From Methanolobus psychrophilus R15 (GTDB taxonomy: Archaea; Halobacteriota; Methanosarcinia; Methanosarcinales; Methanosarcinaceae), in the NCBI GenBank assembly GCA_000306725.1, contig CP003083.1, forward strand, positions 1,922,001 through 1,986,000: 64,000 bases of DNA, given 5' to 3'. Positions 44,970-53,823 of the stretch are shown one piece after another (positions within the stretch are counted from its first letter, which is position 1; each line of letters starts with the position of its first letter). The translations under genes were made by a program, and so were the position numbers. The notes under the pieces were generated by a model. That model had not been told where the DNA came from, ran no database searches, and was given only the letters and a program-made list of their open reading frames with translations.

Positions 44970-46196
44970 TTAAGACTTTGCCTCTTCTTTTGCGATTTCT
45001 GCAAGCCTTTTTCCGACATCTCTGCACTGCTTCAGGTCATCCTCAAAAGGCCTGAACTTGACCTGCAGGCTCTCGGTTGCAAGTTTAAACCCTGCAGATT
45101 CTATCTCCTTTTCCATGCCTTTAATAGCTCCGCCTCCCCATCCGTAGGAGCCGAAGAGGAAGTATTTCTTGTTCTTTGGATGAAGCCCTGTCATATATGT
45201 AAGAAACCCTGCTACCGTGTAAAACATCTTATTGTTCATCGTAGGGGAGCCAATAGCAATGACCGGTGAATCCATCAGCTCCTTCATGGTCATACTCCAG
45301 TCGTTCTTTCTCAAATGGCGCACCCTTACTTCCACGCCTGCTTCTCTTACACCCTCAGCTATCTCCATTGCCATTTTCTCAGTGCTGCCCCACATGGTGT
45401 CATAGATCACAAGCACCTTTTGGGCAGCTTCTCCTCTGGCCCATCTGCCATAGGCTTCAATTATCCTGGAAGGATCCTTCCTCCAGATGACACCGTGGGC
45501 CGGGGCTATCATATCTATGCTTATCCCAAGCTCTTTTACCTTCTCCACATACTTGATAACCTGTCCGCCGAAGGGCAGCAGGATATTTGCATAGTAGATG
45601 GCAGCATCTTCCATGACATCCTCCACTTCATCATCAAAGCGTTTGGAAGTTGCAATGTGCTGGCCAAATGCATCGTTGGAGAAGAGTATCTTGTCCTCCT
45701 TGAGGTATGTCTGCATGCTGTCGGGCCAGTGCAGCATAGTTGCCTCAATGAACATCAGTGTCCGCTTTCCGAGTTTTATCTCGTCTCCGGTCTTTGCTAC
45801 CTGGAATTTCCAGTCGTCACAGCCCATTTCCCTGTAATGCTCACAGAGCCCGGACTTACCCTTGGCGCTTGCAATAAGGGTGGCATTTGTAGCGATGTCC
45901 ATTATCGCAGGCAATGACCCGGAATGGTCCATCTCCACATGGTTGGAGATAACATAATCTATCTTGGCCGGGTCAACTATCTGCCTTATTCTTTTGAGCA
46001 TCTCTTCGGAAAAGCTTGCCTTGACCGTGTCGATAAGCGCTATCTTCTCATCAACAATAAGGTATGCGTTGTAACTTCCACCTTTTGGAGTCTCGTAACC
46101 ATGAAAGTCTCTCAGGTTCCAGTCAACAACGCCTACCCAGTATATTCCCTCTGCTATCTTCAGTGGCTGTGGCTCATCCATAAGCATTATCTCCAT
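44970..46196 (-). CDS. fprA: Flavodiiron protein FprA (F420H2 oxidase)
   Basis: The 408-residue protein has an N-terminal metallo-beta-lactamase-type diiron domain with NHVEMDHSGS (His86, Glu88, Asp90, His91) and a C-terminal flavodoxin domain beginning VLVIYDTMWGSTEKMAMEIA (about 265). In methanogens FprA reduces O2 to water using F420H2. It sits six bases past a rubrerythrin-like gene and upstream of an FTR-like gene, forming an oxygen-defence operon. Confidence 0.94.
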   Translation of the reverse strand: MEIMLMDEPQPLKIAEGIYWVGVVDWNLRDFHGYETPKGGSYNAYLIVDEKIALIDTVKASFSEEMLKRIRQIVDPAKIDYVISNHVEMDHSGSLPAIMDIATNATLIASAKGKSGLCEHYREMGCDDWKFQVAKTGDEIKLGKRTLMFIEATMLHWPDSMQTYLKEDKILFSNDAFGQHIATSKRFDDEVEDVMEDAAIYYANILLPFGGQVIKYVEKVKELGISIDMIAPAHGVIWRKDPSRIIEAYGRWARGEAAQKVLVIYDTMWGSTEKMAMEIAEGVREAGVEVRVRHLRKNDWSMTMKELMDSPVIAIGSPTMNNKMFYTVAGFLTYMTGLHPKNKKYFLFGSYGWGGGAIKGMEKEIESAGFKLATESLQVKFRPFEDDLKQCRDVGKRLAEIAKEEAKS

Positions 46197-46201
46197 CTAA
46201 A

Positions 46202-46690
46202 TTATGTCTGCATCCTGAACTCGGTTGCCCATTCGAGAAGCTCATCTATTATCCTGTAATGTCCTCTCTCGGCAGCCGCAACGTTCTCAAAGAAAACCCT
46301 TTGGTCCTCATCATCTGCCCTCTTTGCCAGTTCTGAGTAGAAATACTCGCTCTTGTGCTCAAATCTCAGGGCTGCCAGCAATATTCCCACCTCTTCCAGT
46401 TTTTTTCCGGAGAACTCTTCCGCAAAAGACGCCTTGAAATCCGGGTAATCAAACTCAACGATAGGTGCCTTTTTCTGCTCTCTGTATTGCCGAAGATACT
46501 CGGCATGTTTCTTTTCCTCTTCTGCAAGGAAAGTGTAAAGATCCCTGGCAACCGCATTGCTCATCGAAGATGCTTTTTCCAGATAGTATTCCCGCCCTTC
46601 GTTTTCCAGTTCAATGGCCATGGCAATTGCTTCATCGATCGATCCGAGCTGGTCAAGCTCATCTGCTATTTCCTTTAAGGTGTCTTTCAT
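46202..46690 (-). CDS. Rubrerythrin-like diiron protein (ferritin-like, no rubredoxin domain)
   Basis: From the ATG at 46690, with GAGGT six bases upstream, the product has 162 residues. Two EX-type helix pairs bear diiron ligands: AIELENEGREYYLEKA, FLAEEEKKHAEYL, RFEHKSEYFYSEL and AAAERGHYRIIDEL. No C-terminal Cys4 rubredoxin is present, so electrons must come from a partner. It is a probable peroxide or oxygen scavenger, co-transcribed with fprA. Confidence 0.88.
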   Translation of the reverse strand: MKDTLKEIADELDQLGSIDEAIAMAIELENEGREYYLEKASSMSNAVARDLYTFLAEEEKKHAEYLRQYREQKKAPIVEFDYPDFKASFAEEFSGKKLEEVGILLAALRFEHKSEYFYSELAKRADDEDQRVFFENVAAAERGHYRIIDELLEWATEFRMQT

Positions 46691-46992
46691 GCCCATACCT
46701 CTGCCAGAATAAATGCTATGGTTAATCAAATCAGTTCAGTGTTTGTTTGCCTGAATATGAACAAATCCCACAGATTCAAACTATCGGGGTCCGGCTTAAT
46801 ATATCTTTCGAAGGTCGACTCTTTTCCCGATTGACTTTTTGGTCCCATATTAGGTTCCTCTTTACCCATTTTCAAAAAAAGGCAACCTCTACCTTTATTT
46901 AGAAACCTTTTTATTTACTATCATCCATTACAGAGGTTATATTTAGTTTGATTTCAGTATTTTAAATGTATTATTTTGACAGAGGTAATGTG

Positions 46993-48973: not shown

Positions 48974-49519
48974 TCAATCCTTGCTGACCCCCAATATATC
49001 GTATATATCAGAAGGTTTCCTCATCACCGTGATATTTTCCATCTGTGCAAGCTTTTCAGAATTGGAGACATCTATCTCTCTCATCTTGAGGTTCATTGTC
49101 TTCCCTTGGGGTGATATAGTCTGCACGGTTCCCCTTTTCTGGTCTACTGCGAGTATGAAGATCGGGGTTTCACCTTTTGCGGTTTGAGCTACAGCATTAG
49201 TGACAATGGTGTCTGAGATCCCATTTACTATCTTGGCAACTGTGTTAGCGGTGGCAGGTGCAATAATGAGCGCATCATAGTGTCCCACCTGTAATGGCCC
49301 TGCGATGAACGGCGAGTTTGGTCCTCCTTCTTTCTTGAAGTCCGGGAAGTCGTTCTGCAGGTCACTCCACATATGGTACCATTTGAGGACGGTTTCTCCT
49401 TCCTTTGAAAGGAAGACCATCATTTCGATGTCATTCTTTTTCTTAATGTCCACCATTATGTCGTACGTTTCCTTAATCAGGTCTCCTGAGCCTGTTATTC
49501 CCCATGCTATCCTCTTCAT
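48974..49519 (-). CDS. afpA: Archaeoflavoprotein AfpA
   Basis: A 181-residue flavoprotein of the flavoprotein/DfpA fold: RIAWGITGSGDLIKETYDIM, VLKWYHMW, and APATANTVAKIVNGISDTIVTNAVAQTAKG. AfpA binds FMN; in Archaeoglobus it accepts electrons from ferredoxin and can hand them on to Isf. Here it is the last of eight tightly spaced genes that also include Isf and a ferredoxin, supporting that path. Confidence 0.92.
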   Translation of the reverse strand: MKRIAWGITGSGDLIKETYDIMVDIKKKNDIEMMVFLSKEGETVLKWYHMWSDLQNDFPDFKKEGGPNSPFIAGPLQVGHYDALIIAPATANTVAKIVNGISDTIVTNAVAQTAKGETPIFILAVDQKRGTVQTISPQGKTMNLKMREIDVSNSEKLAQMENITVMRKPSDIYDILGVSKD

Positions 49520-49572
49520 TCAATGTCTCCTCGTATCTTATTGCAATAATCATCCTGGCCTTTCCGGGATGT

Positions 49573-50271
49573 TCAGTATCCTATCAGTGATTCCTTCTTG
49601 ACCCTCACATCCGGTATGCCCATGGAGTGCAGCATCTCAGTCATGGACTCCGTCATGGATGGAGGCCCGCAAATGTAGAACTCCCTTGTAGCATAATCAG
49701 GTACCTCCTTTCGGATCAGGTTCTCATTGATCCTCTCCCTGCATCCGGTCCAGTTTTCGGATGCTCTGGTCAGGGTCTGGAACACAGTAAGGCGAGGGTT
49801 CTGCCGGATCATTTCTGATAACTCTTTCCAGAATACCATGTCCTCCTCGGTCCTGTCACTGCAGATCAGCACTACATCCGTATCCAGCTTCAGATCAGTA
49901 CAGTACCTGCAGATGCCTCTCATGGGTGCTATGCCTATTCCGCCGCTGAGCAATACTATCTTTTCATACTCTCCTTCGTAACTCATCTTTCCGAAGGGGC
50001 CAGTGATATTGAAAGGATATCCGGTTTCCATGGAATCCAGCGCGTTTGAGAATTCGTGGCCGGTAAGTTTCTTTGTGAATTCCAGGTGGTCCTTTTCTGT
50101 CGGGCTGCTGGATAAACTGAAAGGCTTGCTGACGCTCTTCCCATTGAATTCCAATGTCACTACAATGTACTGCCCGGCTTTGTAGTCAAAATCAACAGGT
50201 CTTTTGAACCTGAAGCTCTTTACATTTGCGCTGCGCTGGATAATTTCACTTATATTCGCCTGGAATTTCAA
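49573..50271 (-). CDS. FAD/NAD(P)-binding ferredoxin reductase-type oxidoreductase
   Basis: The 232-residue protein has the FNR plan: an FAD barrel with KPFSLSSSP (RxYS-like, with a K-P-F-S variant), then GGIGIAPMRGICRYC (NAD loop) and the C-terminal FYICGPPSMTESM. No Fe-S domain is attached. It can link NAD(P)H or another carrier with the adjacent ferredoxin, Isf or AfpA. The gene is separated by five bases from isf. Confidence 0.9.
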   Translation of the reverse strand: MKFQANISEIIQRSANVKSFRFKRPVDFDYKAGQYIVVTLEFNGKSVSKPFSLSSSPTEKDHLEFTKKLTGHEFSNALDSMETGYPFNITGPFGKMSYEGEYEKIVLLSGGIGIAPMRGICRYCTDLKLDTDVVLICSDRTEEDMVFWKELSEMIRQNPRLTVFQTLTRASENWTGCRERINENLIRKEVPDYATREFYICGPPSMTESMTEMLHSMGIPDVRVKKESLIGY

Positions 50272-50276
50272 GATAC

Positions 50277-50909
50277 TTACTCCTGTTGTATCTTTTTAAT
50301 AAGCTGAGCTGTCTGAATCAGCTTCTTCATTGTCCTGCGAAGGCTCTTGAGACCGTCAGGGTCTTCAGCCACTCCTTCTGCTCCCTTGTCCTTTGACCAG
50401 AAAGTTCCGCCAAGGTTGGAACCGAAGGACCCTCCACCCACAGGTATCATTTCGCTGATAACATAAAAATCATGTATGGACCGGATCGCAGGTTCCTGGC
50501 CTCCTATCCTGTCACCGCCCACTGCAGCTGCGGCACCAATCTTGTTCAGGAATACCTTTGGGTCGCGTGCAACCACAGCCCTGCACCTGTCCAGAATAGT
50601 CTTTGTCTGGGCGCTGAGCGTACCCTGGTAGACAGGAGTGCCGATTATCCAGGCATCAGCCCAGATCATTCTATCATACAGCTCCACAAGATCGTCTTTG
50701 TGGATGCAGCCCTGCTTGGTACGCACACAGTAGTCACAGTGAATGCAGAATTTCATGTCCTTTCCGCTTGCAGAGAAATACTCCGTCTCTGAACCAAACT
50801 TCTCCTGTGCATATCGCAAGGCCTCATTCACAATAAAATCAGTGGCTTTCTTCCTGGGGCTGCCAGATATACCCAGTAGCCGGATAGCTGAACCTTCAGA
50901 CAATGGCAC
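50277..50909 (-). CDS. isf: Iron-sulfur flavoprotein (Isf)
   Basis: A 210-residue flavodoxin-like protein starting with GTG after AGGAGG. LLGISGSPRKKATD binds FMN phosphate. The compact motif CIHCDYCVRTKQGC (55, 58, 61, 68; CX2CX2CX6C) matches the 4Fe-4S site of Methanosarcina Isf. In that group Isf reduces O2 and H2O2 with electrons from ferredoxin. The ferredoxin gene is 14 bases upstream. Confidence 0.92.
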   Translation of the reverse strand: MPLSEGSAIRLLGISGSPRKKATDFIVNEALRYAQEKFGSETEYFSASGKDMKFCIHCDYCVRTKQGCIHKDDLVELYDRMIWADAWIIGTPVYQGTLSAQTKTILDRCRAVVARDPKVFLNKIGAAAAVGGDRIGGQEPAIRSIHDFYVISEMIPVGGGSFGSNLGGTFWSKDKGAEGVAEDPDGLKSLRRTMKKLIQTAQLIKKIQQE

Positions 50910-50923
50910 TCCAACCTCCTTGT

Positions 50924-51115
50924 TTATTCAATGGTTATCGATTCCGTGGGGCAGGCATCCACACAGATACCGCATTCCACACAATCTTCAGGTCGTGCAA
51001 TAACGGACTTCATGTCCCCGTTATTGTCTTTCTGAATCTCTATTACATCTGTAGGGCATGCCTGAGCACATGCTCCGATGCCTTCACACTTGTTTTTATC
51101 TACTTTTGCCGGCAC
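50924..51115 (-). CDS. Two-cluster ferredoxin lacking one cysteine in the first motif
   Basis: A 63-residue ferredoxin, GTG start with AGGAGG seven bases upstream. The second motif CVECGICVDACP (45, 48, 51, 55) is complete. The first, CEGIGACAQACP, has Ile13 in the place of the second cysteine (Cys10, 16, 20 only), so a 3Fe-4S cluster there is likely. It probably serves the adjacent flavoproteins. Confidence 0.92.
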   Translation of the reverse strand: MPAKVDKNKCEGIGACAQACPTDVIEIQKDNNGDMKSVIARPEDCVECGICVDACPTESITIE

Positions 51116-51131
51116 TACTATATCCTCCTTT

Positions 51132-51431
51132 TCATTGTTTTTTATATGAGCCTATAATTGTCAGGGTTATTGTCAACGCTGCCAGGACCATCAATGCCAT
51201 AGAAGCCGTAAATCCGGGGGCCTGCGCCCGGGCTTCAACAGGTTTTTCCGGGTCATGGATATTACCGGATGCCTTCACCATGGCTATCAGCGGTACTTCA
51301 TATATCCCTTCTTCGAACAAGTGGTCTATGAGTTCCTGGGGAGCTACCCTGTTATCGGCAATTACCTTTTCAGCAAGCCCGAAACTTATTACAGCGGCAA
51401 TAAAAACAATGATGTATCTAAAGATGAACAC
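51132..51431 (-). CDS. Small exported membrane protein with PGF-CTERM-like end
   Basis: A 99-residue protein: N-terminal hydrophobic signal/anchor (FIFRYIIVFIAAVISFGLAEKVIA), a 45-residue outside segment (VAPQELIDHLFEEGIYEVPLIA) and a C-terminal APGFTASMALMVLAALTITLTIIGSYKKQ, which resembles a PGF-CTERM sorting end. Otherwise unrecognised. It lies inside the redox operon, so it may attach or position one of the components at the membrane. Confidence 0.65.
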   Translation of the reverse strand: MFIFRYIIVFIAAVISFGLAEKVIADNRVAPQELIDHLFEEGIYEVPLIAMVKASGNIHDPEKPVEARAQAPGFTASMALMVLAALTITLTIIGSYKKQ

Positions 51432-51531
51432 CCCATTTTTACAACAGCATCTGACCTATAGTTAAGTTATTAAGAATGACCCATGAACAATAATTAAAAT
51501 TGAAGAGGATCCTATGATCCCTTCGAAACTT

Positions 51532-51945
51532 TCATCTTAGCATTTTCAGCGCATGCCTGCAGGCTGCAACAGCCGGTGCACCTGAGGTTATGAAGATCAC
51601 ATCCATGACTTCCATGATCTCCTCCTTAGTTGCTCCGTTGTTGAGCGCGCTCTTCATCTGGGAAGCCACACAGGCCTCACACTGCTTTGAAGCCACCACT
51701 GCGAGTGCCATCAGGATTTTTGTTTTGGCAGGAAGTGCACCATCCTGGAGCAATTTGCTGTTGCACATATTATACTTGTGCAGGAACTCCGGCTCAAGCT
51801 CATCAAGGGTTTCCAGTATGTGAGGTGTGAATCCCAGCTTATCTGACATGTCCCCAAGTAAGCCATCGCGTCTTTTTCCTTCTCCGCACATTTTCCTGTC
51901 TTCGTTTGGATCTCTATTTCCACACATATTTCTATCTCCGCACAT
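51532..51945 (-). CDS. AhpD-like / carboxymuconolactone decarboxylase family protein
   Basis: The 137-residue protein carries an AhpD-type CxxC pair in [16 protein letters not shown] (Cys89, Cys92); the usual His four residues later is Gln96. [16 protein letters not shown] follows. AhpD-like proteins reduce peroxiredoxin-type disulfides or peroxides. The N-terminus is unusual: MCG is repeated at residues 1, 7 and 19. Starts at M1 (51945) and M7 (51927) each have a ribosome-site-like sequence. Confidence 0.87.
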
Positions 51946-51977
51946 ATTTCTATTTCCTTTGTATTAGTAATGAACGT

Positions 51978-52196
51978 TCAGTCAAAACCCTCTTCTATGG
52001 TATGGCCCAGGCAGTAACTGCACATGAGCCGGGGAAGTCCTTTGGGAAGCCTTTCAACATGAGGTGGTTTTCCAATTGATACTGGCAAATCAAGTTCCTT
52101 TGCATGGTCAACACACAGGCCCTTGCCGCATACTATGCAAACACAGACAGCTTCACTATCATTTCCTGTATCCATGCAATCATAACATTTCATCAT
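51978..52196 (-). CDS. DUF2180 cysteine-rich protein, copy 1
   Basis: A 72-residue protein with CYDC, VCIVCGKGLCVDH and LMCSYCLGH motifs, a zinc-finger-like pattern typical of archaeal DUF2180. AGGTGAT precedes the start. Function unknown; metal binding is likely. It shares the MKCY[DE]C...C[IV]CIVCG.G.C order with its neighbour upstream, from which it is separated by eight bases. Confidence 0.85.
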   Translation of the reverse strand: MMKCYDCMDTGNDSEAVCVCIVCGKGLCVDHAKELDLPVSIGKPPHVERLPKGLPRLMCSYCLGHTIEEGFD

Positions 52197-52204
52197 GATA
52201 TCAC

Positions 52205-52444
52205 CTAATAGTTCTCCTTCAGGGCTTCATGGCAGGGTATGCATAGTATCTTTTTAATATGCTGCACATCCTCGTATTTACACTCAACTCCCATTCCGCA
52301 CTTCAGCTTAATGCTGTATTCTCCTTCCCATACAGGAGTATCTTCCCTTACCAGGTGTTGTTTACATACTCCTCGCCCGCAAACTATGCAGATGCCCACA
52401 GTATCGCTAGTTTTTCCATTTTTAGAACACTCATAACATTTCAT
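52205..52444 (-). CDS. DUF2180 cysteine-rich protein, copy 2
   Basis: A 79-residue paralogue of the next gene: MKCYECSKNGK, VGICIVCGRGVCKQH, a middle LKCGMGVECKY insertion and LCIPCHEALKENY. It probably binds one or two zinc ions. It is the first gene of the eight-gene minus-strand operon and lies divergent from mer, 392 bases apart. Confidence 0.85.
   Translation of the reverse strand: MKCYECSKNGKTSDTVGICIVCGRGVCKQHLVREDTPVWEGEYSIKLKCGMGVECKYEDVQHIKKILCIPCHEALKENY

Positions 52445-53823
<1,379 letters not shown>

Follow-up and report, generated by a model that had tools for sequence, protein, structure and literature searches.

Gene content of the cluster

The stretch of DNA analysed here (the window) comprises 64,000 nucleotides (nt) of Methanolobus psychrophilus R15 (assembly GCA_000306725.1, contig CP003083.1, positions 1,922,001 to 1,986,000). 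It contains, at window positions 48974–52444, a cluster of eight minus-strand open reading frames (ORFs) whose coordinates the initial annotation had given exactly. As described there, the ORFs are closely spaced (gaps of 8, 32, 100, 16, 14, 5 and 53 nt) and run divergently from mer, which we identify as a TIGR03555 protein at 52837–53823. The several AGGAGG sites reported were found as AGGAG(G) upstream of the ferredoxin, Isf, FNR and AfpA ORFs, and curated models match the family names proposed for the cluster: two DUF2180 proteins, an AhpD-like/CMD protein, a ferredoxin, Isf, FNR and AfpA. The locus is a real, conserved and biologically sensible cluster, in which one of the eight "genes" is a relic.

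The first two genes encode small proteins of 79 and 72 amino acids (aa), DUF2180 A (52205–52444) and DUF2180 B (51978–52196), with PF09947 scores of 83.3 and 70.5 bits against a cut-off of 22.2, and they form a tandem pair family-wide. DUF2180 A is a Cys/His protein that likely binds zinc; its residues C3, C6, C19, C22, C27, H30, C68, C71 and H72 are invariant in 28 relatives. The predicted DUF2180 structure, of moderate confidence, showed only weak resemblances to zinc fingers and no match below an expectation value of 0.8 in the PDB, and a literature search for DUF2180 found no paper.

The third gene (51532–51945, 137 aa, PF02627) encodes a protein of AhpD-like fold, to which the initial annotation had assigned the handling of peroxidatic disulfides. 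That assignment does not hold: where AhpD has its catalytic CX2C-x3-H, the window protein reads CEACVASQ, with Gln in place of His. Instead, it carries the cysteines of MdrA and is a putative MdrA-type protein disulfide reductase. Its residues C61, C89, C92 and C129, invariant in 24 of 24 relatives, correspond to C39, C67, C70 and C107 of the Methanosarcina acetivorans-type protein in locus L140, reportedly the residues that Lessner and Ferry studied in MdrA in 2007. MdrA is said to combine an Fe-S-dependent hexamer/trimer switch with disulfide reductase activity. The Methanosarcina protein and the window protein thus have in common the CX2C pair, two more conserved cysteines that correspond in position, and the locus itself, whereas the Methanolobus subgroup of the window differs by an MCG-rich N-terminal extension. 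This extension is complete, with three MCG motifs, only in the window and in genomes G125 and G129, and is reduced in other Methanolobus.

Downstream of the relic lie four redox proteins. The ferredoxin (50924–51115, 63 aa, Fer4) fits the 7Fe type originally proposed: site 1 reads C10-x5-C16-x3-C20, lacking its second Cys, while site 2 is complete (C45/C48/C51/C55), which by motif gives one [3Fe-4S] and one [4Fe-4S] cluster. The Isf-type iron-sulfur flavoprotein (50277–50909, 210 aa, PF03358 of the FMN_red/Isf type) has the compact CX2CX2CX4-7C motif, here C55-x2-C58-x2-C61-x6-C68, conserved in 25 of 26 relatives. Next comes an FNR-type FAD/NAD(P) reductase with a TTG start and no Fe-S domain (49573–50271, 232 aa, PF00970 and PF00175); it carries an unusual C121-x2-C124 pair, found in 17 of 18 relatives, that is possibly redox-active. 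The last gene encodes the archaeoflavoprotein AfpA (48974–49519, 181 aa), which scores 262.8 bits with TIGR02699 (cut-off 192.45) and has 3wis/4mwg as its best solved relative. As established in M. thermophila and A. fulgidus, Isf reduces O2 and H2O2, and AfpA passes ferredoxin electrons to Isf.

In the intergenic region between mer and DUF2180 A, 163 nt upstream of the first gene, we found a 16-nt box, ACCGWTACAGMTATAT (minus strand, 52607–52622, recorded as ACCGATACAGATATAT). Each of the 15 loci of the genus that were read and that span the region has it; the window has a single copy, where the mean expected by chance, allowing two mismatches, is 0.09. The box is a candidate promoter or regulator site.

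A pentaheme cytochrome gene in decay

The fourth ORF (51132–51431, 99 aa) had been taken for a CTERM membrane peptide and a component in its own right. In related genomes, however, this position is occupied by a protein of some 450–500 aa with five CXXCH motifs. Alignment to the intact gene of a sister Methanolobus (L064:2976–4388, about 470 aa) indicates that the ORF is the remnant of an MA3739-type pentaheme cytochrome c gene and no gene type of its own, so that the apparently new "membrane peptide" becomes a cytochrome in decay. Both ends of the orthologue can be aligned with the relic, which retains the signal-peptide start, the C-terminal tail and the membrane anchor, and all five heme motifs are deleted (0 of 5 CXXCH, against 5 of 5 in both L064 and L140).

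The intact orthologues match Cytochrome_C554 in profile searches, and their sole sequence match among solved structures is the penta-heme cytochrome c552 5ze8. The predicted structure of the cytochrome is poor (mean predicted local distance difference test score, pLDDT, 48.6), with the penta-heme cytochrome c552 of T. tepidum as the one plausible match, in agreement with the sequence hit. Membership of the PGF-CTERM family was considered and rejected: the window ORF has no NCBIfam hit and does not match TIGR04126, for which the best relative reaches 19.8 bits against a cut-off of 24.5, and sister genomes have the intact cytochrome.

Relative to L064, two in-frame deletions account for the whole difference: one of 1017 nt (residues 16–354) and one of 96 nt (residues 369–400), with junctions near 51386 and at 51333–51345. 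The residues add up, since 470 minus 371 is 99, exactly the length of the relic. The 1017-nt deletion has an identical junction in the sister genome G125 (locus L158), an independent genome, which makes an assembly artefact unlikely. The 96-nt deletion is found in the window only and is flanked by the similar repeats AGCTCCCCGGGAAACT and AGCACCCCAGGAACTC, a pattern that slippage or recombination would leave.

The retained frame might be thought to signal a functional small membrane peptide derived from the cytochrome tail and kept open on purpose, the more so as the start, the tail and the spacing to the ferredoxin gene are preserved and the sister relic in G125 is also an open frame (131 aa). 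Yet two deletions would both be in frame by chance about 1 time in 9, and an open frame may do no more than spare the genes downstream a polar effect. Moreover, the relic tail evolves faster than its neighbours, with a ratio of nonsynonymous to synonymous substitution rates (dN/dS) of about 0.5–0.67 against 0.05–0.2 (Fisher p = 0.0002 versus G125 and 0.04 versus G129). We regard a functional peptide as quite improbable. The rates fit a relic without deciding against a peptide, because the tails of intact cytochromes are also loosely constrained (relic versus intact tail, p = 0.46).

No second C554-type cytochrome was found elsewhere in the genome. The cytochrome c assembly proteins are kept, together with a 508-aa ORF weakly matching the octaheme model TIGR04315 (possibly MmcA), which indicates that the loss is specific to the MA3739-type gene. 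In locus L163 (genome G112), the pentaheme cytochrome is split into two overlapping frames, either by sequencing error or as a loss under way.

Conservation of the cluster in Methanosarcinaceae

The initial annotation had proposed a search for the gene order in related genomes as a check. The order mer (divergent)-DUF2180-DUF2180-MdrA-cytochrome-(ferredoxin)-Isf-(FNR)-AfpA recurs across Methanosarcinaceae, in nearly all genera read, and most of the family has an intact pentaheme cytochrome at the same spot. Among the genomes of the order with a clear cytochrome match, the cytochrome lies 1.6–6.6 kb from AfpA in 58 (two relics counted in). Methanolobus and several further genera have the ferredoxin and FNR genes, and Methanosarcina has neither; FNR occurs without the ferredoxin in groups g2, g4 and g5.

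Genes of oxygen defence bracket or interrupt the cluster in relatives. Desulfoferrodoxin is inserted between MdrA and the cytochrome in Methanosarcina and is also present in the cluster at L121; it is absent from the cluster in the window and in other Methanolobus. Rubrerythrin lies between FNR and AfpA in several genera, and rubrerythrin and FprA directly follow AfpA in M. acetivorans-type clusters such as L140. The window holds the same pair as a syntenic continuation, on the same strand and 2.2 kb downstream of the cluster (44970–46729), behind two opposite-strand genes: a rubrerythrin-like protein (46202–46729, PF02915) and, beside it, a 408-aa homologue of the FprA-type F420H2 oxidase (44970–46196).

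In Methanosarcina, cluster integrity goes together with the cytochrome. Across 24 genomes of Methanosarcina and allies, DUF2180 and AfpA stand 4–5.3 kb apart wherever the cytochrome is present (12 of 12), and the cluster is split or collapsed wherever it is absent (12 of 12). A tree of Isf plus AfpA gives 7 changes in cytochrome presence, a count that is probably one too high, since one deletion is common to the window and G125.

At L121 (11136–14407), genes have been added beside the cytochrome that encode an IscU-reductase fusion, a cysteine desulfurase, and DsrE- and TusA-like proteins (families assigned by eye from the translations).

A probable redox-repair function and its known counterpart

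The combination of genes had been described as no known system. A counterpart has in fact been published: MA4664/MA3734-3743 of M. acetivorans, a putative operon of oxidative-stress proteins (PMC3729527), for which a passage of the same paper cites Lessner and Ferry 2007. The two loci share the gene order DUF2180-DUF2180-MdrA-Isf-AfpA and its divergent orientation to mer, and both have rubrerythrin and FprA on the same side. The window differs by adding the 7Fe ferredoxin and the FNR-type reductase, by lacking desulfoferrodoxin, by placing two opposite-strand genes between AfpA and rubrerythrin-FprA, and by holding a hemeless relic at the position where M. acetivorans has the pentaheme cytochrome. 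New here are the added ferredoxin and reductase, the recurrent loss of the cytochrome and the lead on AfpA discussed below.

We consider it probable that the locus is the Methanolobus form of a Methanosarcinaceae oxidative-stress and redox-repair cluster, with the electron route set out here and with loss of the cytochrome. Such a function, which the initial annotation had already suggested, is supported because rubrerythrin, desulfoferrodoxin and FprA bracket or interrupt the cluster in relatives. Gene content, order and conservation, the relic and the clustering with these three genes in relatives are observed; co-transcription, the electron route and the role in oxygen defence are inferred. 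Mechanistically, Isf would reduce O2 or H2O2 with cytosolic electrons that reach it by way of the 7Fe ferredoxin and AfpA and that come either from ferredoxin or, via the FNR-type reductase, from NAD(P)H. MdrA would reduce oxidised protein disulfides, and the DUF2180 zinc proteins may be accessory proteins with a thiol or a regulatory function. In the ancestral form, the module would have been connected to the cell surface by a pentaheme cytochrome, encoded in mid-cluster, that was secreted and anchored at its C-terminus; in the present genome, where the cytochrome gene is down to a hemeless 99-aa remnant, the soluble module alone would be left.

Three observations weigh against this assignment. 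AfpA occurs almost throughout the order, including in places outside clusters of this kind. The redox regulator MsvR does not bind the promoters of the M. acetivorans cluster (PMC3729527). Finally, MA3739 rises 4.1-fold in M. acetivorans during respiration of anthraquinone-2,6-disulfonate (AQDS; PMC6703419), suggesting that the cytochrome serves respiration and not the stress response.

The last point leads to a different view of the whole locus, as mainly a module for respiration or extracellular electron transfer built around the pentaheme cytochrome, in which the flavoproteins feed the cytochrome and cytochrome-less genomes keep a decaying remainder. The raised MA3739 level in an mmcA mutant (PMC11024163) and the parallel between cytochrome presence and cluster integrity in Methanosarcina agree with it. 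However, deletion of MA3739 left electron uptake from Fe(0) unaffected (PMC10989991), and the cytochrome has been lost several times while its neighbours stayed intact and under strong constraint, which is not the picture of a decaying remainder. In addition, cytosolic flavoproteins could not hand electrons straight to a cytochrome on the cell surface, and the locus encodes no membrane partner. A mainly respiratory module is, in our judgement, unlikely. By gene order, MA3739, which has been examined for its part in extracellular electron transfer, is a member of an oxidative-stress cluster family-wide and has been repeatedly lost from it.

AfpA and the absence of DmrX

DmrX (TIGR02700) is the known archaeal dihydromethanopterin reductase. 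Our search of this complete genome (G000) returned no TIGR02700 match above the cut-off, and DmrX is missing from most non-Methanosarcina genera of Methanosarcinaceae and from many near-complete genomes of the family. Many methylotrophic methanogens are thereby left without the known last enzyme of methanopterin-cofactor synthesis, a step for which AfpA is a testable candidate. Of 150 genomes of the order, 149 have an AfpA-family match, which exceeds the family cut-off in 138, and the window AfpA is the best TIGR02700 match in its genome, at 126.9 bits. The window AfpA, with 3wis as solved relative, has the FMN flavoprotein fold in common with Archaeoglobus AfpA, beta-proteobacterial DmrB and methanogen DmrX, and the bacterial AfpA-type DmrB, a proposed dihydromethanopterin reductase, restored one-carbon (C1) growth (PMC6193120).

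AfpA, the adjacent ferredoxin and FNR might then form a split dihydromethanopterin reductase that replaces DmrX and maintains or repairs the oxygen-labile C1 carrier beside mer. The ferredoxin matches the ferredoxin part of DmrX, the cluster retains both FNR and AfpA in all 22 DmrX-less genomes of the tree set, and no DHFR_1 protein was found in the genome. Against this, the window AfpA lacks the fused ferredoxin domain of DmrX, its match covers the flavoprotein part only, and scores of 126.9–150.5 bits stay well below the cut-off of 251.35; ferredoxins generally match the ferredoxin part (39 weak matches in the genome). AfpA is equally conserved where DmrX is present and no more DmrX-like where it is missing, the independent losses are few (4 changes), and three RibD_C proteins in the genome are alternative candidates. 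We find the replacement doubtful, and give no better prospects to its general form, in which AfpA-ferredoxin-FNR would act as dihydromethanopterin reductase in the DmrX-less methylotrophic Methanosarcinaceae, this genome included, coupling C1-carrier regeneration to the oxidative-stress cluster. It is put forward as a hypothesis because AfpA is not closer to DmrX in those genomes and RibD_C proteins could substitute. If true, it would tie regeneration of an oxygen-labile C1 carrier to an oxidative-stress cluster located beside mer.

The afpA gene of the window (48974–49519) probably also has a history of its own. Its synonymous divergence (dS) from sister genomes is about 1.1, against about 0.1–0.35 for the adjacent genes, and on the tree of Isf and AfpA the window groups with G107/G113 and not with G125/G129. 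The excess in dS and the tree placement together point to a probable allele replacement by recombination.

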